DNA from: an uncultured Rickettsiales bacterium
GTDB taxonomy: Bacteria > Pseudomonadota > Alphaproteobacteria > Rickettsiales > UBA1997
Direction of reading: 5' to 3'
DNA: 40,223 nt
NCBI GenBank assembly: GCA_905478165.1
Contig: CAJQHK010000007.1
Location: forward strand, 1-40,223
Shown: piece by piece, positions 3,574-40,041 of the stretch
Numbering within the stretch: the first letter of the stretch is position 1
Layout of the letters: each line of letters begins with the position of its first letter
Translations under genes and position numbers: made by a program
Notes under the pieces: generated by a model
Databases searched by the model: none
Told to the model about the DNA's origin: nothing
The model's input: the letters and a program-made list of their open reading frames with translations, nothing else

Positions 3574-3668
3574 AATAGTCAAAAATAACGCTAAATTCCA
3601 CTACTAATTTGAACAAAACATATAATTTTTAAACCAAAGAATTTGATGCTAATTTTAGCTTTTCATTC
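3574..3668 (-). mobile_element. Eroded 3' end of an IS256-family element
   Basis: The minus strand encodes NEKLKLASNSLV followed by a stop (3629-3631), nearly the same as NEMLKLASNSSV at the end of the transposase remnant at 39507-39815. Similarity continues past the stop in both places (ATATAATTT..TAGACC-like, then GCTAAATTC), as expected for the shared terminal non-coding part of an IS. Only the last dozen codons and the tip survive; reading further in meets stops at once. Confidence 0.55.
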
Positions 3669-3727: not shown

Positions 3728-3785
3728 TACCAATTTCCACCTTTAAAGCAGTTTTTTCGAAATATTTTTATTCATAAATATTTAA
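3728..3785. repeat. Left half of the dispersed palindromic element
   Basis: From TACCAATTTCCACC through AAAGCAGTTTTTTCG to TTCATAAATATTTAAC this matches the left arm of the full element at 39874-40041 almost base for base. The central hairpin and right arm are missing. Confidence 0.75.
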
Positions 3786-12980: not shown

Positions 12981-13072
12981 TACCAATTCCCACCCTTAAA
13001 GCAGTTTTTTCGAAATATTTTTATCCTTAAATCATCAAAAAGCCTTACACCCTATTAACATAGGGTGGGCAT
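12981..13072. repeat. Palindromic element, truncated copy ending at the RND stop codon
   Basis: Starts TACCAATTCCCACC and carries the AAAGCAGTTTTTTCG left arm. The central hairpin CACCCTAT-TAAC-ATAGGGTG follows, in the opposite orientation to the copy at 39874-40041 (its 13027-13072 stretch is the exact reverse complement of the centre there). Identity ceases at about 13072, where the stop codon of the RND transporter (13072-13074) begins. Confidence 0.85.
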
Positions 13073-15573
13073 TAAATATAGGATGAATTTTTATTGTCAT
13101 TCCCAAAGGGTTTGAACTTAACAAATAAAACCGGTAACAACAAGAAGTCAGCTAACAAGGCGAAGACCATTGACAATGTTGTTAGAAATCCAAAATAGAT
13201 TGTCGGCACAAAATTAGAAAACACTAGGATAAAAAATCCAAATCCAACTATAGCAGTTGTGTAATACATAGCTTTTCCAATCGTATTGTGAGACCTTTTA
13301 ACTGCCTCAATATAGTTTCCATCTTTTTTTAATTCCTCTTCAAATCTGTGCGTATAATGAATTGTGTCATCAACGGCAATACCAATTGCAATTGCGGCAA
13401 TAGTAATAGTCATGATGTCGAGAGGGATGTTTGTCAAGCCCATAACTCCAAGGATAAAAACCGCTACAATAATATTTGGAATAATGGCAATGAGAGAGAC
13501 TTTAATATTTCTAAAAATAAGAAGAAACATTATCAAGATTACAAAAAATACAAAGATCAAAGTTAATATTTGGCTTTTAAAGAGGCTTTGTAAAATATTA
13601 TTATATAGAACTAAGATACCATTTAGATGGATATCATCTTCTTCTAAATTAAATTTTGTAACTAGATCGCTTTCTATTCTTTTTATTAGTTCATTCCTTC
13701 TTAAATTTTTACTAGATTCAATAATTCTGGCACTAAAATGTATTTTATTGCCATCATCCGATAAATAGGGGTAAAATAAGGTATTTTTTATATCTTCTGA
13801 GGTTTTATTGCACGCAAGTGTTAGTATAAAATCATCAAGATCTGCGTCGCCATTAAGAGATTTAAGTATAAATAGCGAGCTTGATAGTGACGTCACTTTT
13901 CCAATTTCTGGTAAATTACTTAGATAATCATGAATTCGATCTATAAGATCAATATTATTACTATTATACCAATAGCTATTAGAAAACTGACATTTATCCT
14001 CCTCAAAATCATCTTCGGAAAAGAAATCTTCAAATTCATCTTCATATTTTTCTTCAGTTTTGACACTTCTAGGGGCCTCAATCACTAGATTTAGAGGGGT
14101 AGTGCCACCTAATTTGCTATCTATCATCCTCATGCCCTTGTTAATCTGGGTGGATTCTTTGTAATAATTGATAAAGCTATTCTCAACCGTTAATCTGAAC
14201 ATGCCAATAATAGCCAAAAGAAATAGGGAGGAGAAAATGATGATAATTAATGAAGATTTTTTTCTTACCAACTGATAAAAATAATTAATAGAGTTGGTTA
14301 AAACATTATACTCCCTAGAGTGATTAACGATATCATCATTGTTGATGGTCAGTAAGTTTGGTAGTAATATAAAAGTAAATAGGTAGGAAATTAATATACC
14401 AATTGCCATCATATAGCCAAAGTCAATAACTGGAGTAATATCACTCATAATCAATGATCCAAAGGCAACTATAGTTGTCACTGAGGTATAAAAACAGGGT
14501 AAGGACACTTTTTTAACCGACCACAATATTAAATCTATCTGACTGATATTTTTTTCCTTAGTGAGTATTTCCCTATATCGCACCATTAAATGGATATTCA
14601 TTGATAGCGTGATAATGAATAGTAAGGAGATGAAGTTAGAAGAAACCAACGTTACTGGCCAATCTAAAAAGCCAAGCAAGCCAAGCATTGATATTATTAC
14701 CCCTACACAAATCAATAATGGAGCGACAACCCATTTTAGGGATTTAAAAATTAATAATAATGTTAAAATAGTAAAAATTAATATTAGAAGGCTAAATATT
14801 TTGATGTCACTATTGATAAAATCAATTGAATCAGCTATAATCATCGGCACTCCAGCAATATGAATGTTGTAATTATCTTGATAATCGGATAATATCTGCC
14901 TCACTATTTTAATATTATATCTTTGTTTTTTTAGGTTAGATTGGTGATATTTGCTAAAATTACTCTCAACATTTTTTAATTTTTCTTCATTTAAAAGCCT
15001 GTCATCTCTTGCTACCTTTCTTAAGGAGTCTCTTTTATTTAGTAATTTGTAATAAGCTTCGTCTCTTTTAAATTTAATTAGGATAGTTGAAATTTCAGCG
15101 TTCAGGTCAATAAGATTCTGCGAATATAAGGGGTTGGTGGTAAGCTCTGCTTTTGCTAGATTTTTATCAACATTTCCATCTGAAATTCTTCTAATACCTG
15201 CGGGCAAATCTTCAAAGGAAATTTTTGGACTGTTAATCAGTGGAACATCTAGAATTGTAATAACAGAATTTACGTCATTAATTTCTAGTAATTTACGCCT
15301 CAATTCTTTTAAATCTGCTAAACTATCATCAGAAAATAAATCCTTGTTAATGGGGTCGTAAGTAACTATCAAAAATTCATCAGATCCAAATTCTTTAACA
15401 ATTTCGCGATAATATTCTACGTCCTTATCATTTTTTAAATTGAGAGAGTCGGAAGAGGCGTCTAATTTAAAATCGAGGGCATGATAGGTAGAAAAGCAAG
15501 TGACACAAATAAATATTAAGAATATTAGGTTCGGCTTACCTAAAAATAATTTTTGATATATCTTACTCAGCAT
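13072..15573 (-). CDS. RND-superfamily (MMPL-type) exporter
   Basis: An 833-residue polytopic protein with two halves, each having one N-terminal helix, a large periplasmic loop and a five-helix block. Motifs: DSLNLKNDKDVEYYREIVKEFG at the first loop, FKSLKWVVAPLL, SNFISLLFIITLSMNIHLMV, then in the second half ITIAAIAIGIAVDDTIHYTHRFEEEL, the conserved RND TM4 signature with the acidic proton-relay residues. It fits the predicted-exporter/MMPL group that moves lipids or hydrophobic compounds. The second loop has an unusual acidic stretch (about residues 508-525, YEDEFEDFFSEDDFEED). It overlaps the pepF stop by 11 bases at its start. Its stop codon abuts a repeat element. Confidence 0.88.
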   Translation of the reverse strand: MLSKIYQKLFLGKPNLIFLIFICVTCFSTYHALDFKLDASSDSLNLKNDKDVEYYREIVKEFGSDEFLIVTYDPINKDLFSDDSLADLKELRRKLLEINDVNSVITILDVPLINSPKISFEDLPAGIRRISDGNVDKNLAKAELTTNPLYSQNLIDLNAEISTILIKFKRDEAYYKLLNKRDSLRKVARDDRLLNEEKLKNVESNFSKYHQSNLKKQRYNIKIVRQILSDYQDNYNIHIAGVPMIIADSIDFINSDIKIFSLLILIFTILTLLLIFKSLKWVVAPLLICVGVIISMLGLLGFLDWPVTLVSSNFISLLFIITLSMNIHLMVRYREILTKEKNISQIDLILWSVKKVSLPCFYTSVTTIVAFGSLIMSDITPVIDFGYMMAIGILISYLFTFILLPNLLTINNDDIVNHSREYNVLTNSINYFYQLVRKKSSLIIIIFSSLFLLAIIGMFRLTVENSFINYYKESTQINKGMRMIDSKLGGTTPLNLVIEAPRSVKTEEKYEDEFEDFFSEDDFEEDKCQFSNSYWYNSNNIDLIDRIHDYLSNLPEIGKVTSLSSSLFILKSLNGDADLDDFILTLACNKTSEDIKNTLFYPYLSDDGNKIHFSARIIESSKNLRRNELIKRIESDLVTKFNLEEDDIHLNGILVLYNNILQSLFKSQILTLIFVFFVILIMFLLIFRNIKVSLIAIIPNIIVAVFILGVMGLTNIPLDIMTITIAAIAIGIAVDDTIHYTHRFEEELKKDGNYIEAVKRSHNTIGKAMYYTTAIVGFGFFILVFSNFVPTIYFGFLTTLSMVFALLADFLLLPVLFVKFKPFGNDNKNSSYI

Positions 15574-20676: not shown

Positions 20677-21309
20677 TCAAATGAAAACATTTTTAGCGTG
20701 AACATATCTGGCAATCATGTCGATCTCAATATTAACTTGATCCGTTTTATTTAAAAATTGTAAATTGGTGCTGTCAAGAGTATGGCTAATGATGTTGGTT
20801 TGAAATAAAAAATGATTTTTATCAAAATCTATTACATCATTTACTGTTAATGAGATACCATTAATACAAATTGATCCTTTTTGACAGATAAATTTTCTAA
20901 ACTCATTGGAAATTTTAAAGGTAAAAATCCAAGAATCCTTATTAGCTTTGGTAATTTCGTGAATTTTACAGATTGTATCAACATGACCACCAACCAGATG
21001 TCCGCCAATTTCATCGCCAATTTTAAGAGAAAACTCAATATTAATAAAACTACCAATTTTCCAATTAAAAATGGTAGTTTTGGCAATAGTTTCCGGAGAA
21101 ACTTCGAAAGAAAATAAATTAAAACCTGATTTTTCTTCTAATTTTATTAAAGTTAAGCAAATTCCAGAGCAGGAAATTGACGATCCAATTTGATATTTAC
21201 CGTTTTTAAGGTCTTTTTCGGCAATTTTAATTGTCAAAACTAGATCTCGATCATTTTTCTTAGTAGTGTCTGTAATTTCTGCAATATGAGTTATGAGTCC
21301 AGTAAACAT
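20677..21309 (-). CDS. ribE: Riboflavin synthase alpha subunit
   Basis: A 210-residue riboflavin synthase, which dismutates two 6,7-dimethyl-8-ribityllumazines to riboflavin. It has the invariant MFTGLI start and two similar lumazine-binding barrels: SSISCSGICLTLIKLEE and VSPETIAKTT in the first, and GGHLVGGHVDTICKI then GSICINGISLTVNDV in the second. Length is normal. It pairs functionally with ribD at 23942; ribA/B and ribH are not in the window. Riboflavin synthesis is missing from Rickettsia but present in other Rickettsiales, which helps place the organism. Confidence 0.95.
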   Translation of the reverse strand: MFTGLITHIAEITDTTKKNDRDLVLTIKIAEKDLKNGKYQIGSSISCSGICLTLIKLEEKSGFNLFSFEVSPETIAKTTIFNWKIGSFINIEFSLKIGDEIGGHLVGGHVDTICKIHEITKANKDSWIFTFKISNEFRKFICQKGSICINGISLTVNDVIDFDKNHFLFQTNIISHTLDSTNLQFLNKTDQVNIEIDMIARYVHAKNVFI

Positions 21310-21485
21310 AAATTTAAATAATTTTAAAAAACTGCTTTAAAAGACCTCAGTACAACTGAAGCATATTGTATAAAAGTCTTTTTTAAAGTCCTATATTGGA
21401 ACAATGTTATTGCGTCTTTTTTTAAGTTAAAGATTTATTATTGATTTTATTAAATGGGTAATTAGACTAAAAGGATCAAAAATAG

Positions 21486-22309: not shown

Positions 22310-22405
22310 CTTTAAAACTAAGTAATATATCAACTGTTTTTTGTAAAAAATAATTGAAATATGACTGTATTTCATAATACTTTTTGTCTGCCTAATTCGA
22401 TAAAA
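22310..22405. repeat. Intergenic repeat family B, copy 1 (upstream of ctpA)
   Basis: Aligns with 25060-25155: shared ACTTTAAAA(C)TAAGTAATATATC, then TTTGTAAAAAATAA.TG.AATATG, TATTTC and CTTTTTGT at matching spacing. It is about 100 bp with interior substitutions. It lies 30 bp before the ctpA start. Confidence 0.65.
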
Positions 22406-25066: not shown

Positions 25067-25155
25067 AATAAGTAATATATCAAAGCATTATTACTGTCAT
25101 TTGTAAAAAATAACTGGAATATGTCCATATTTCGCAAGGCTTTTTGTAGATGATA
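25060..25155. repeat. Intergenic repeat family B, copy 2 (upstream of thrC)
   Basis: Homologous to 22310-22405 as described there. The similarity begins at ACTTTAAAATAAG, which already contains the ribD stop codon, and ends about 85 bp before the thrC start. Confidence 0.65.
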
Positions 25156-25239
25156 GGTAAAAGATAAAGATAGATTATTTAGTTTTTTTAACATAGTTTT
25201 TAAGGTAAAATTTGGTATTGGGAAATTAATAAAAGAATA

Positions 25240-26998: not shown

Positions 26999-28717
26999 AT
27001 GAACTTAGACTTAAAAAAACAAAAAAATAACCTTCTTTTTATCCCTCTCGGTGGTTCTGGAGAAATTGGTATGAATGTAAATCTTTATCATCTTGATGGT
27101 AAATTTATTATGATTGATCTTGGACTTGGTTTTGCCCACAATATTCCTGGCGTCAATATGATTGCACCGGATCTTACTTTTATCAAAAAACATAGAAAAG
27201 ATCTGTTGGGAATTGTAATCACTCATATTCACGAAGATCATATTGGTTCTGTGCAGCATTTGTGGCAGGAATTAAGGGTTCCAGTTTATTGTACGAATCT
27301 TGCTAAAAATTTTCTTGAAGCAAAATTAGAGGAATATTCTTTTAAAAAGCAGGTTAAAATCAATGTTATTGACGGTTCAAAAAAATTAAAATTAGGATCT
27401 TTTGAGATGGAATTTATTGGCCTGACTCATTCGGTACCAGAAATGAATGCAATTTGCGTAAGAACTAAATTTGGTAATATTTTACATACTGGAGATTGGA
27501 AATTTGATCCCGATCCTGTTGTTGGAAATATTTCAGAGAAGGAGAAGATTGCTAAAATTGCTGATGAAGAGGGTTTTTTAGCCATAGTTTCTGATTCTAC
27601 AAATATTTTAAATAAGGGTAGATCAGGTTCCGAAGGGCAGTTATTAGAAAATCTTGAGAGAATTATTTTGGAATCTAAAGGGATGGTTGGTGTTACAACT
27701 TTTGCTTCTAATATTGCCAGAATATCAACAATTGCTAAGGCGGCAATTAAGTCTGGTCGTAAAGTTGTTCTAGCAGGTTTTTCTATTAGAAGATTGTATG
27801 AGGTTGGTAAAAAATCTGGTTATTTACAGGATTTGCAGCAATGCGTAATTTCTGAAAATGAAATAAGATCTTACGATAGGAACAAAATTTTAGTATTATG
27901 TACTGGTTGTCAGGGTGAAATTAACGCATCAACCATGAAAATTGCCACCAATAATCATCGTGTGATTAAGTTTAAGTCTGGCGATTCAATGATTTTTTCT
28001 TCTAAGATTATTCCTGGTAATGAAAAGCAGATTTTTAATATTTTTAACCTTTTTGCTAGAAGAAAGATAGAGGTAATCACTGAAAAAACTGAAATGATTC
28101 ATGTTTCTGGACATCCAAATCGTGATGAAGTTGCGGAAATGTATAAGATAGCTAAACCGAAATTTTCTATTCCAGTTCATGGTGAATATTATCATATTTT
28201 AGAGCATAGAAGGCTTGCTAAGGAAGAGTGGGGTTGCGAACACGCCAATCTAACTGAAAATGGCTGTGTTATTAAGATTAATGAGAATAGTTGTGAGAAA
28301 ATTGCAAATGTAGAAACTGGTTATTTAGCGGTTGATGGTAAGAACTTAATTCCAACTGATGGCAAAATAATCTCTCAGAGAAAAATATTACAAGATTCAG
28401 GAGCGGTTTTTGTTATAGTTTTGCTCTCAACAAGCGGTGAGATTCTTGATATTGATTTAAAATCCGTTGGCTCTTATGATTTTGAAAATGATCCATATTG
28501 TTTAAATGATATTGAGGATGATATTGGTAATGCAGTTAAAAGCTCTAGCTCTGAGATTAGAAAAGCTAAAAAATCTCTTTTTAAAAAGGAAGGTGATCTG
28601 AGTAAAATATCAAAATCAATTGCTAAGGGGGTTAAATCAAAATTAATGAAAAACATGATGGATTTAACTGGCAAAAAACCAGCAATAGAGGTTTCGATAA
28701 TGTTCAATAAATCTTAA
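26999..28717 (+). CDS. rnj: Ribonuclease J
   Basis: A 572-residue metallo-beta-lactamase/beta-CASP RNase with 5'-3' exo- and endonuclease activity, the main RNA turnover enzyme in many alphaproteobacteria. It has FIPLGGSGEIGMNVNLY, the zinc motif THIHEDHIGS (HxHxDH, about 73-79), GLTHSVPEMNAI, LHTGDWKFDPDP, VVSDSTN-like AIVSDSTNILNKGRSGSE, beta-CASP region with CTGCQGEINAS and HVSGHPNRDE, and FSIPVHGEYYHILEH. I chose ATG 26999 over TTG 26993. It ends with a C-terminal domain (GKKPAIEVSIMFNKS). Confidence 0.95.
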   Translation: MNLDLKKQKNNLLFIPLGGSGEIGMNVNLYHLDGKFIMIDLGLGFAHNIPGVNMIAPDLTFIKKHRKDLLGIVITHIHEDHIGSVQHLWQELRVPVYCTNLAKNFLEAKLEEYSFKKQVKINVIDGSKKLKLGSFEMEFIGLTHSVPEMNAICVRTKFGNILHTGDWKFDPDPVVGNISEKEKIAKIADEEGFLAIVSDSTNILNKGRSGSEGQLLENLERIILESKGMVGVTTFASNIARISTIAKAAIKSGRKVVLAGFSIRRLYEVGKKSGYLQDLQQCVISENEIRSYDRNKILVLCTGCQGEINASTMKIATNNHRVIKFKSGDSMIFSSKIIPGNEKQIFNIFNLFARRKIEVITEKTEMIHVSGHPNRDEVAEMYKIAKPKFSIPVHGEYYHILEHRRLAKEEWGCEHANLTENGCVIKINENSCEKIANVETGYLAVDGKNLIPTDGKIISQRKILQDSGAVFVIVLLSTSGEILDIDLKSVGSYDFENDPYCLNDIEDDIGNAVKSSSSEIRKAKKSLFKKEGDLSKISKSIAKGVKSKLMKNMMDLTGKKPAIEVSIMFNKS

Positions 28718-28830
28718 TAAAATACTTCAAAAAAAACTGCTTTAAAGATATGGGTTACTATGAGCCCAAGATCTTTTTTGCCTAAGTCTAGGAAATGCAA
28801 TAAAAATGTTGATCTTTTTATAAGAGTAAA

Positions 28831-31785: not shown

Positions 31786-33270
31786 TCAGAGAATATTATC
31801 ATTGATTTTTATTGATTTCATTAATGCAGCAGCCTTATTTAGGCATTCTTGATATTCTGATTCTGGCACTGAATCATAAACAATTCCAGCGCCAGCCTGA
31901 AGATAGATTGTATTATTTTTAATAAGTGAGGTTCGAAGGCAGATGCAATGCTCCATATCTCCATTTGCTGAAAAATAGCCAACCGAACCAGCATAGAATC
32001 CTCTTTTTTCTTCCTCAATTTCTTCAATAATTTGCATGGCACGAATTTTTGGTGCACCACTAACGGTGCCAGCAGGAAAAGAGCTAGTCAAAACATCTAA
32101 ACCATCCTTATTATCTAAAATTTCTCCCTCAACATTTGAGCTAATATGCATGACATGGGAATAATATTCAATAATCATTTTTTCAGTAACTTTGACGCTT
32201 TGCTTTTTACAGACTCTAGCAACATCATTACGCCCCAAGTCAATTAACATTAAATGTTCAGCAATTTCTTTTTTATCAGAGAGTAAATCTTTGGCATTTT
32301 TCTTATCTTCAAACTCATCCCTTCCTCTTTTTCTGGTGCCTGCAAGAGGGCGAATAGTAACTTTACCATTTTTAAGAGAGCTTAAGATTTCAGGGCTTGA
32401 ACCGATGATATTAAAATCATCAAAATTAACAAAAAACATGAAGGGAGAAGGGTTAATAGAGCGAAGTGATCGGTAAAAATCAAAAGAATTTTCTTGATTA
32501 AATTTTGCTGAAAATCTTTGAGAAATAAGGATTTGCAAAGCATCTCCAGAGGTAATGTAATCCTTGGCCTTTTGAACCATATTTTTATATTTTTCTTCTG
32601 ATAAATGATTCTTAAATTCTATTTTTTTATCTCCTAAATTAACTTCAGAGCCAGAAAATGATGAATTAATAATGTCAGTGACTTCTTTAATGTTACTTTG
32701 AGCATGTTTGTATGAATCTTCTGGATTTTGGTTCTCTTGAGGAAAAATTGGTGCAGTAATGTAAATTACATCAAATAAACTATCGAAAATAACTAAAATT
32801 TGCGGCCTAATAAAAATAGAATCTGGAATATTAATTTCGTCATCCTGTCTATGGTCGCCAATATTTTCCATCAATTTGACCATGTCATAAGACATGTAAC
32901 CAAAAAGACCGGACTCTACAGGTAAATCAGATTTTATGTCGTTAATTTTACAGGAATTTATTAGTTTCCGTAGATTTTCTAGGGGGTTTTCAGTGATTTT
33001 GATAAAATTTTCCGAGTTTTCTTCAAAATTTTCATTAAAATAGGCAATTTTATCCTTAATTTTCCACATTAAGTCTGGCTTGAGACCTATTATTGAAAAT
33101 CTAGCTCTATTTTTACCTTTTTCTACCGACTCATAGAGAAAATTATTTTTTGGAAAATATTTCTTTAATTTTAAAAAAGTTAAAACGGGCGTAGTTAAAT
33201 CTGATGAGATTTTAACCTTTAAAATTACTGATTTTTTCTGTTCTAATTTTTTGATTATGTTAATTTTCAT
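31786..33270 (-). CDS. trpE: Anthranilate synthase component I
   Basis: A 494-residue chorismate-utilising enzyme. The N-terminal domain has YPKNNFLYESVE-like FPKNNFLYESVEKGKNRARFSIIG, with the LLES-type tryptophan site near FLYESVE. The catalytic core carries ALQILISQRFSA, INPSPFMFFVNF, GSSPEILSSL, RPLAGTRKRG, LIDLGRNDVARV, VMHISSNVEGE, FPAGTVSGAPKIRAM and LQAGAGIVYDS, all typical of TrpE. trpG and other trp genes are not adjacent. The region just before its ATG is a relic of the palindromic element, which could affect its expression. PabB is the alternative; N-terminal features and length favour TrpE. Confidence 0.9.
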   Translation of the reverse strand: MKINIIKKLEQKKSVILKVKISSDLTTPVLTFLKLKKYFPKNNFLYESVEKGKNRARFSIIGLKPDLMWKIKDKIAYFNENFEENSENFIKITENPLENLRKLINSCKINDIKSDLPVESGLFGYMSYDMVKLMENIGDHRQDDEINIPDSIFIRPQILVIFDSLFDVIYITAPIFPQENQNPEDSYKHAQSNIKEVTDIINSSFSGSEVNLGDKKIEFKNHLSEEKYKNMVQKAKDYITSGDALQILISQRFSAKFNQENSFDFYRSLRSINPSPFMFFVNFDDFNIIGSSPEILSSLKNGKVTIRPLAGTRKRGRDEFEDKKNAKDLLSDKKEIAEHLMLIDLGRNDVARVCKKQSVKVTEKMIIEYYSHVMHISSNVEGEILDNKDGLDVLTSSFPAGTVSGAPKIRAMQIIEEIEEEKRGFYAGSVGYFSANGDMEHCICLRTSLIKNNTIYLQAGAGIVYDSVPESEYQECLNKAAALMKSIKINDNIL

Positions 33271-33378
33271 CTTTAAGGTGGTTTTTTAAAATATTCTATT
33301 CATAAACTATTAAAAAATAATGATTTTTGATGATTTAGGAGAAAAAAACATCTGTTTTAATCAGCATATTTTAAGGGC
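33262..33378. repeat. Palindromic element, eroded copy upstream of trpE
   Basis: Matches in order: CTTTAA-GGTGGTTTTTT, then ATTCTATTCATAAACTATTAAAAAA, TTTTTGATGATTTA, a shortened right arm (AAAAACATCTGTTTTAA) and ATTTTAAGG. The central GC-rich hairpin has been lost. The left end lies across the trpE start codon (33268-33270). Confidence 0.55.
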
Positions 33379-34467
33379 AAAAATTAACATTAGTCTAGCC
33401 ATAATGTTTTATCGCTAAGAGCTGCCCTCATATTTATTTTATTAAATAATTTTGTATTTAAAGCTTTATATCTTATAAAACATCAATCTCTTTATTTAAT
33501 TTTCCTGCTATTAATATTGTGATTTTAAATAATATTATTGATAATTTTTTAAAATAATAAAGTGTTTTTTAGTAAAACACAAATTCTTATAAATAATTCA
33601 TTTTTTAATAATAATTGATTCAGATATTTTTCATTATCTACGATTTCTTGCAACTCCTTTTTTTATATTCGTAAAAAAATACATCCACAATATATCTGCC
33701 ATAGAGATCGATTTTTATGATATTTATTAAAGATGTCTATTAAAAGATTGTCGTAAATATTTGTTATTATTTTATTATTCGTCGCTGTTTAGGGGGTTTT
33801 CTTCGGTATGGGAAATTTTAAATAAAGTGAGATATTTTGAGGGTAACAGCCATCTTTTCCACTTTACAAACTTTGTGAACACATTAAGAATATTGCCTTA
33901 TTGGATAAGATCTATTTTGTAATGCTGGTGGAGAATCTAATATATGACTGGTTCAAAGGTAGAGTGGTATATCAAAATTCTAACGAAATGGATGATGTAA
34001 ATTTTCATTGAAATGAAGACGCTAGTCGTAGTAATGCCGAAGAGAGTGTAGTTAGTTTGTTAGAAGGCTCCGCATACAAAATAGGTAGCCCATTTTCTTG
34101 CTCAAGAGCCTCCTCTTTTGTAAGTCTATTAACTGACTTGATCTATTCTCCTATTTTGGTAAATTCGTCATTAGCTAGCCAATTGGGTCCATCACTCCCC
34201 TCTATATCGGAAATTTTTGATTGTAGCAAAATATATTCTGGAACTATTATAAGTTAGTTTTCTTAGTAAGTTTAATTTTTTAAGGAGTCTAGTGCTGTTA
34301 AGGTTTGACAACAAGGAGGGGGTTGGATCTAGTACCATACGACCTCCCACTTGAAAATAGATAAAAGATAGTTATAATATTTATATATTTCATGAGGTTT
34401 TTTTTAGCTATCTTAACAAAAAAGATAAAGTTATGATAATGTTATTGAAAAGTTTAAATTAAAGATA
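33379..34467. other. Gene-poor 1.1-kb region between trpE and coaD
   Basis: No intact gene. The first 450 bp are extremely AT-rich with stops in every frame. From about 33840 base composition rises and coding-like frames appear (see the next entry). No RNA gene recognised; a short GGAGGGGGTTGGATC stretch near 34313 has no clear role. Confidence 0.5.
33847..34257 (+). pseudogene. Possible decayed gene, unknown
   Basis: One plus-strand frame runs 136 codons with a single internal TGA (about 34009-34011). It reads ALLDKIYFVMLVENLIYDWF, then after the stop SRSNAEESVVSLLEGSAYK and an end at TAA/TAG 34257. The opposite strand over 34020-34250 also reads in a protein-like way (SVNRLTKEEALEQENGLPIL) with one stop, so which strand was coding is unresolved. 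Treat as remnant DNA of unknown origin. Confidence 0.25.
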
Positions 34468-37996: not shown

Positions 37997-38069
37997 TACC
38001 GATTCCCACCTTTAAAAGATAAAGCTAGATCATGTTATTATTTATCCAATATTATGGTGGGAATTGGTA
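37997..38069. repeat. Palindromic element, short internal-deletion derivative
   Basis: 73 bp bounded by TACCGATTCCCACC and GGTGGGAATTGGTA, the same termini as the full element at 39874, but with a different, shorter centre (AAAGCTAGATCATGTTATTA). It ends exactly where the stop codon (38070-38072) of the small ORF 38070-38228 begins. Confidence 0.8.
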
Positions 38070-39361: not shown

Positions 39362-39506
39362 TTTTATTAATTTGAAATATTTGTAAAACCATAATAAGAT
39401 AAAAAACTAAATAATCTAGAATAGTTTTGACGTGGATAGGAAAAATAATTTGGTTAATAGGTAGTCTGCTAAATTCAAGTACTAAATGTAACGAAATATA
39501 TAATTT

Positions 39507-39815
39507 CTAGACCGATGAATTTGATGCTAATTTTAGCATTTCATTCGGCATTATCCATTTTTTCTCTATGTTTTTTAAAGCTAAGTATAAAAGTTTAGAA
39601 ATAGCAATGTCATTTTTTAATATTGATCTATTTTTAATAATTTTTCTAAGACTATAATTAACAGATTCGATAGTATTGGTAGTATATGTTGCCTTTCTGA
39701 TATAATCAGGATATTCAAGGAGTGGCATGCTTTTCGTTTATAGATAAATAAATAGACTTTAAATCTTTGGCAGCTTCTTTCTTTTCTTTGTGGTACCATA
39801 ATGCGTATAATTAGT
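39507..39815 (-). pseudogene. Remnant of IS256-family (Mutator-type) transposase
   Basis: The last 73 codons read LLEYPDYIRKATYTTNTIES, VNYSLRKIIKNRSILKND, LLYLALKNIEKKWIMP, the conserved C-terminal block of IS256 transposases. Upstream, in another frame, the strand reads LYALWYHKEKKEAAKDLKSI, which belongs about 35-40 residues earlier in the intact protein. So there has been an internal deletion plus frameshift, and all of the catalytic N-terminal two thirds is gone. The same element's tip is found at 3574-3668. Confidence 0.8.
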
Positions 39816-39873: not shown

Positions 39874-40041
39874 TACCAATTCCTACCTTTAAAGCAGTTT
39901 TTTTCGAAATATTTTTATTCATAAATTATTAAAAAATGCCCACCCTATGTTAATAGGGTGTAAGGCTTTTTGATGATTTATGAATAAAAAGATTTCGAAA
40001 AATCTGTCTTAACTTCTATATTTTAAAGATGGGAATTGGTA
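39874..40041. repeat. Full copy of dispersed palindromic (MITE-like) element
   Basis: 168 bp. Terminal inverted repeats TACCAATTCCTACCTTTAAA and TTTAAAGATGGGAATTGGTA; subterminal arms TTCGAAATATTTTTATTCAT and its near-exact reverse complement ATGAATAAAAAGATTTCGAA; a central perfect hairpin CACCCTAT-GTTA-ATAGGGTG. The whole can fold as one long hairpin. Non-coding. Related pieces lie at 3728, 12981, 33262 and 37997, with shorter scraps near 21325 and 28727. Confidence 0.85.

Follow-up and report, generated by a model that had tools for sequence, protein, structure and literature searches.

A palindromic MITE of an uncultured Rickettsiales bacterium, very probably mobilized in trans by an IS630-family transposase with a 3-bp target duplication

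We find that a dispersed palindromic element of an uncultured Rickettsiales bacterium is very probably a MITE that was moved in trans by an IS630-family DDE transposase encoded elsewhere, with a TWA target-site duplication and a mobilizer that is apparently dead in this genome. The stretch analyzed (the window, 40,223 nucleotides) is contig 7 of a 1.2-Mb genome in 31 contigs, G000. A preliminary description had proposed a MITE mobilized in trans; that proposal is supported by the number of copies, by fixed boundaries with a target-site duplication, by a transposase gene that lies beside the same end in genome G006, and by a gap that is occupied in G000 and empty in relatives. MITEs are a known kind of element, and the unusual feature of this one is its 3-base insertion signature. 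A Rickettsiales MITE family thus gains a candidate mobilizer, ends, and a target rule.

The 168-bp palindrome with terminal inverted repeats (TIRs) that had been described at the right side of the window was confirmed, with TIRs of 20 bp (Table 1). Its left end reads TACCAATTCCTACC and its right end, on the other strand, TACCAATTCCCATC; each is one mismatch away from the 14-mer given in the preliminary description, which has 7 matches in the window at up to 2 mismatches versus 0.12 expected. Folded as RNA, the plus strand of this copy reaches -73.4 kcal/mol (z = -13.7), and the minus strand has a z of -10.9. All four partial copies reported earlier (3728-3785, 12981-13072, 33262-33378, and 37997-38069) were recovered by blastn, but the last is a complete 73-bp element and not a truncated one. 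The search also returned two copies that had been missed (25101-25217 and 34361-34446) and three weaker fragments (22333-22387, 28702-28750, and 21308-21341). The half copy overlaps by 2 bp the 3′ end of a minus-strand open reading frame (ORF) at 13072-15573.

Table 1. Element copies and their parts, in window coordinates
Feature	Position	Strand	Remarks
Complete MITE copy, 168 bp (reference)	39874..40041	+	Flanks TTA / GTA, a target-site duplication with one change
Left TIR (TACCAATTCCTACCTTTAAA)	39874..39893	+	
Right TIR (TACCAATTCCCATCTTTAAA on minus strand)	40022..40041	-	
Central GC-richer hairpin	39938..39966	.	Terminator-like on minus strand (39960-39941)
Left-end fragment	3728..3785	+	92% identity over 59 bp
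Rearranged half copy: left TIR and arm, then central part inverted	12981..13073	+	
Copy, strongly decayed	33262..33378	+	blastn
Complete 73-bp element	37997..38069	+	Flanks TTA/TTA; interior partly sister-subfamily-like
Sister-subfamily copy	25101..25217	+	79% identity to element of G010 (another genus)
Sister-subfamily fragment	34361..34446	+	75-78% to G010 elements
Fragment	22333..22387	+	80%; resembles sister-subfamily copy at 25093-25147
Arm fragment	28702..28750	-	
Short arm fragment, weak	21308..21341	-	

The case for a mobile family depended on copies outside the window, and these exist. A blastn search of G000 with the 168-bp copy gave at least 74 matches, which we merged by hand into at least about 41 places (40 stretches, one of them with two copies); these are minimum values, since scoring covered 40 of 97 initial candidates. 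Among the matches listed, 12 are full-query copies at ≥90% identity. Identity drops to about 75% in older copies, which differ in the parts they lack, and this spread of copy ages also supports the earlier proposal of a MITE mobilized in trans. A 20-bp end pattern, allowing up to 2 mismatches, occurs 33 times on the plus strand and 27 times on the minus strand of G000; the reversed pattern, used as a control, occurs on neither. The elements are short (33 to 274 bp, too short for a transposase gene) and multicopy, and the copies end at the 20-bp TIR, which gives them fixed boundaries. One 153-bp copy (L022, G000:C2:107-259) is almost perfectly palindromic, as though one arm had been overwritten by a copy of its partner. 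Such repeats break assemblies: contig C26 of G000 terminates within the first 21 bases of a copy.

We then considered the target site. Flanking 3-mers were identical in 60 of 109 nontandem TIR pairs, counted uncurated over all loci, and identical 4-mers were found in 0 of 109; the 109 include cases in which one right end is paired with more than one left end, as well as two pairs from other phyla that match by chance. For this count, 9 tandem pairs were dropped and genome labels were assigned by hand. In the 68 pairs with TWA on both sides, the middle base is the same in 58, versus 34 expected (p = 1.7e-9). The 12 young full-length G000 copies (≥90%) have identical triplets in eight cases and a one-base difference in four, including the window copy. 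The preliminary description had suggested a TA duplication, and this is ruled out by the middle base: since a TA duplication would not make it agree, the element is TACC...GGTA with a 3-bp TWA duplication.

A comparison of occupied and empty sites, a point raised earlier, also favors a mobile element. The gap between two genes that we take, by eye, to be lemA-like and htpX-like is 185 bp in G000, where an old copy fills it, and 11 bp in both G002, of the same genus, and G004, of the same family. At E ≤ 1e-15, htpX was matched in none of the other 17 among the 19 relatives searched. The extra 174 bp can be accounted for by a 171-bp element and 3 further bp, although small indels could hide in this difference, the copy being old and decayed and its boundary being deduced from gap lengths.

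What enzyme could have moved this element? A profile search with PF13358 (DDE_3) gave 14 matches in G006, several of them at contig ends. At six contig ends, TACCAATTCCCATCTTTAAT stands directly after the transposase gene, whose C terminus lies immediately inside the TIR; the outer triplets there are TTA, TCA, TTA, TAA, TTA, and TAA. The preliminary description had called for a transposase that carries the same terminal repeat. Indeed, a gene adjoins the same end at these six places, but at one end only, all six copies being cut by contig ends that fall inside the gene. No complete element with the exact TIR at both ends and an intact transposase was seen. A complete relative in G006, L183 (1,103 bp, frameshifted, flanks TAA/TAA), belongs to the IS630 family, with 144.7 bits for NF033545 (cutoff, 100) and 86.9 bits for DDE_3. 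A 69-amino-acid (aa) fragment adjoining the exact TIR scores 56.7 bits for NF033545, below this whole-protein cutoff, and 39.3 bits for DDE_3, over the cutoff. The transposase associated with the MITE ends is thus of the IS630 family.

The canonical duplication of IS630 elements is a 2-bp TA. TA is also called the classical duplication for Tc1/mariner, in the part of the source available to us (PMC7386202). A search with the L183 transposase across 299 genomes of the order found relatives in 24, including multicopy, stop-free genes in two other families. Four IS630 elements of about 1.1 kb from these two families end in TAC[C/T]A, and their eight copies all have identical triplets (TAA, TTA, or TGA); the ends were set by comparing two loci for each element, and two further pairs had no clear right end. 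Together with L183, identical TNA triplets flank 9 of 10 complete IS630 copies, the mismatch being L179 (TTA/TAA). Since 9 of 10 IS630 copies show it, the 3-bp rule appears to be a property of the IS630 lineage and not of the MITE alone; the canonical 2-bp duplication was found neither in the MITEs nor in these nine copies. The complete IS630 copies share with the MITE only roughly the outer 6 to 13 bases.

Duplications of 3 bp with a TWA target are usual for IS5/PIF-Harbinger elements, so the duplication in this MITE family would also suit a transposase of that kind, and L146 has a full copy with a stop-free IS5-family transposase ORF of 289 aa 0.4 kb away. However, at 12 PF01609 loci in 5 genomes, the TIR is on both sides of the gene in none, with an element or end on one side in four. 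A crude search for exact 10-mers gave no other inverted repeats flanking these loci, and a profile search with PF13359 in 10 genomes returned only the same IS5-type gene again. By contrast, the IS630 gene directly adjoins the TIR six times in G006. We therefore rejected IS5-type transposases as the partner and consider an IS5/PIF-Harbinger-like mobilizer very unlikely. Long TIR pairs were also rejected as autonomous elements: L110 (1,093 bp), L074 (1,949 bp), L118 (2,311 bp), and L126 (2,350 bp) bracket not transposases but ordinary genes, which by eye we take to be, in turn, an alaS-like fragment, peptidase/bactofilin-like, relA/spoT-like, and priA-like. L110 (5517-6609, G010:C35) places what is presumably the N-terminal fragment of an alanyl-tRNA synthetase (269 aa) between two element ends. 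Two pattern scans for these transposons in viral contigs gave 0 matches.

In the mechanism we favor, an IS630-family DDE transposase encoded elsewhere would recognize the ends of about 20 bp, TACCAATTCCCAYCTTTAAA, move the DNA between them, and insert it at a T-N-A site (TTA or TAA in most cases), with duplication of these three bases. The interior would be dispensable for recognition, because interiors differ among relatives that have the same ends, and units as small as 33 to 73 bp exist. The mobilizer seems dead in G000, because only a relic of a closely related transposase was found there, and the copies would now be decaying. This relic (C12:37439-37642) has 65% identity and five stops and is flanked by genes that we take, by eye, to be dnaE-like and engB-like. 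Other IS630 gene fragments are at C3:710-1099, which looks like another subgroup, and on C1; G000 yielded no IS630 gene beyond such fragments. The mobilizer in G000 is either extinct or missing from the assembly, and given the five stops in the relic, the MITE family is probably stranded in this genome. We infer that this IS630 transposase would act on the MITE ends and that transposition in G000 has ceased.

The same ends occur well beyond G000. Among 61 genomes of the GTDB family, 21 contain the end pattern at up to 2 mismatches, many of them as a single match. A stricter form that includes the TWA flank was present in 12 genomes when 343 of the order were scanned: 11 in the same family and one (G227) in another. 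The end-rich genomes are G000 and three relatives with the same ends at high copy, G010 (record CAJQHT01, Rickettsiales), G001, and G043 (record CANEUR01, Rickettsiales); G006, G018, and G227 have about a dozen ends each. The presence of the family is patchy: G002, a member of the window's own genus, contains only a single end match. Single matches to the TIR pattern in Patescibacteria, Chloroflexi, Lutibacter, Gillisia, Lachnospiraceae, and Thiotrichaceae were taken as chance. One matching record, CAMAWV010000006.1 (L117), is titled Rickettsia typhi, and its match position equals that in G018:C6 of this family; the label looks wrong.

Interiors follow a different pattern. Sequence matches to the element at E ≤ 0.001 were found in 18 of 83 genomes and are short outside G000 and G010. 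The G010 copies are diverged relatives of the window element and align along it at 67 to 78%. Elements in G001, G043, G018, and G227 have the same TIR and interiors unlike that of the window element; for the first three, matching stretches are at most 49 bp, with 10 candidates scored per genome. The G014, G020, and G024 elements resemble one another by eye. The shortest elements are 33 bp (G010, L123), 42 bp (G000, L144), and 51 bp (G001, L160 and L172, with the same interior); these and L207 of G227, all of 33 to 51 bp, are little beyond two ends back to back. Despite their tiny size, L160, L123, and L144 retain identical TWA triplets. At the other extreme, L159 (G001:C30:15185-15458) is a 274-bp element with the same ends and extra internal DNA. 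In G010, six loci (L081, L108, L112, L083, L091, and L115) hold head-to-tail MITE arrays with GGTA abutting TACC, a period of 172 to 184 bp, and no duplication between units, several of them near contig ends; these could be products of slippage or of circular intermediates.

The main weakness of the proposed partnership is G010. Despite 188 end matches at up to 3 mismatches, this genome gave no DDE_3 match, and a search with the L183 transposase found nothing there at E ≤ 1e-20. This is compatible with a mobilizer that has died out or is absent from the assembly. DDE_3 matches are likewise lacking in G001 and G043, but these two genomes are only 63 to 70% complete. A broader reading, on which we are evenly divided, is that bacterial IS630 includes an undescribed sublineage that occurs in at least three Rickettsiales families, duplicates 3-bp TNA and not the TA that marks the IS630-Tc1-mariner group, and has seeded several genera with their own cohorts of MITEs, which have mainly the ends in common and include units as small as 33 to 51 bp.

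We compared the family with known systems. It belongs with the MITEs on all four features examined (short multicopy units lacking a transposase gene, TIRs at fixed boundaries, a target-site duplication, and ends in common with a transposase-bearing element), and its mode of action parallels that of RUP with IS630-Spn1. REP/BIME sequences with a RAYT transposase were rejected, REP/BIME being 20- to 40-bp units with no target-site duplication and full copies here being about 168 bp with one. Cardinium, which lies outside the Rickettsiales, provides another comparison. Its MITECca01 and ISCca4 are similarly a MITE and a parental IS, in an intracellular endosymbiont; the main text, as far as available to us, has no match for IS630 or for a target-site duplication (PMC9769881). 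RUP of Streptococcus pneumoniae is, like our element, a short intergenic MITE whose TA-terminal TIRs resemble those of an IS630-family element, IS630-Spn1, with mobilization in trans proposed; judged by its description in the part of the review available to us, it differs in being 107 bp long and in inserting at TA-containing targets, whereas the window family duplicates 3-bp TWA/TNA (PMC2229807). The pogo/Fot elements of the IS630-Tc1-mariner group likewise have a 3-bp TAA duplication instead of TA, but they are eukaryotic, and this comparison too is by description in the accessible part of the source (PMC7386202). Should biochemistry bear out the 3-bp duplication, a change of cut spacing would be within the reach of bacterial IS630 transposases, as it was for the eukaryotic Fot elements described there (PMC7386202). 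Titles and abstract openings in the open-licence literature, without ISfinder, gave neither this element nor a 3-bp TNA duplication for a Rickettsiales IS630.

Where the copies lie bears on two further explanations. ORFs of ≥80 aa contain none of the 43 copies, although six copies reach 2 to 49 bp into the end of an ORF. We classed 37 of the 43 by gene context, 19 in tandem, 11 in convergent, and 7 in divergent gaps, leaving 6 unclassed; the background is one 40-kb window, 84% coding. One explanation is that the element belongs to the Rickettsia palindromic elements (RPEs), palindromic repeats that invade protein-coding genes and are retained there. RPEs are found in Rickettsiales, are palindromic, measure about 105 to 150 bp, and form several families, according to the parts of two sources available to us (PMC2229807, PMC10969869). 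The window family resembles them in order, palindromy, and size: records of relatives within the GTDB family are titled Rickettsiales, and its palindrome of about 150 to 170 bp folds into a strong hairpin. However, nearly half of RPEs are in ORFs, often in frame, in the accessible part of one source (PMC10969869), versus 0 of 43 here, so that the frequent in-frame insertion typical of RPEs is absent. Target duplications of RPEs are marked "?" in the review table (PMC2229807), whereas the window family has a clear one, is intergenic, and has a candidate transposase. An RPE is thus a most improbable identity, and the earlier view that the family is distinct holds by location.

The other explanation is that copies are kept between genes as bidirectional transcription terminators or as stabilizers of mRNA 3′ ends. 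Terminator-like hairpins on both strands are indeed present in 11 of 18 G000 TIR pairs of 120 to 210 bp, versus 0.57 expected from shuffles, and in the single G020 element tested; the absence of copies from ORFs and their low number in divergent gaps (7 of 37) would also suit such a role. However, both-strand hairpins are present in only 1 of 30 G010 pairs, in 0 of 2 in G001, and in 0 of 1 each in G043, G018, G227, and G024, and element interiors differ between genomes. Only 4 of 42 consensus pairs have a double-sided change, and we rejected a conserved RNA structure on this ground. An intergenic location is equally expected from selection against gene disruption. Since the sister subfamily does not share these hairpins, we rejected a family-wide role in transcription termination, claim no host function, and regard the explanation as unlikely. 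We read the pattern as selection against harmful insertions combined with a palindromic selfish element, and not as a shared host function.

The window also contains a second dispersed repeat of about 75 to 100 bp with GCTAAAATT-like inverted ends, at 3590-3668 and 39468-39546, each 60 to 330 bp from a MITE copy. This repeat also occurs at L135, L156, and L146/L178, and its longer copies are 85 to 88% identical to each other. Two tandem repeats lie near the left end of the window: three copies of a 21-nt unit at 687-750 and two copies of a 48-nt unit, 96% identical, at 764-859.
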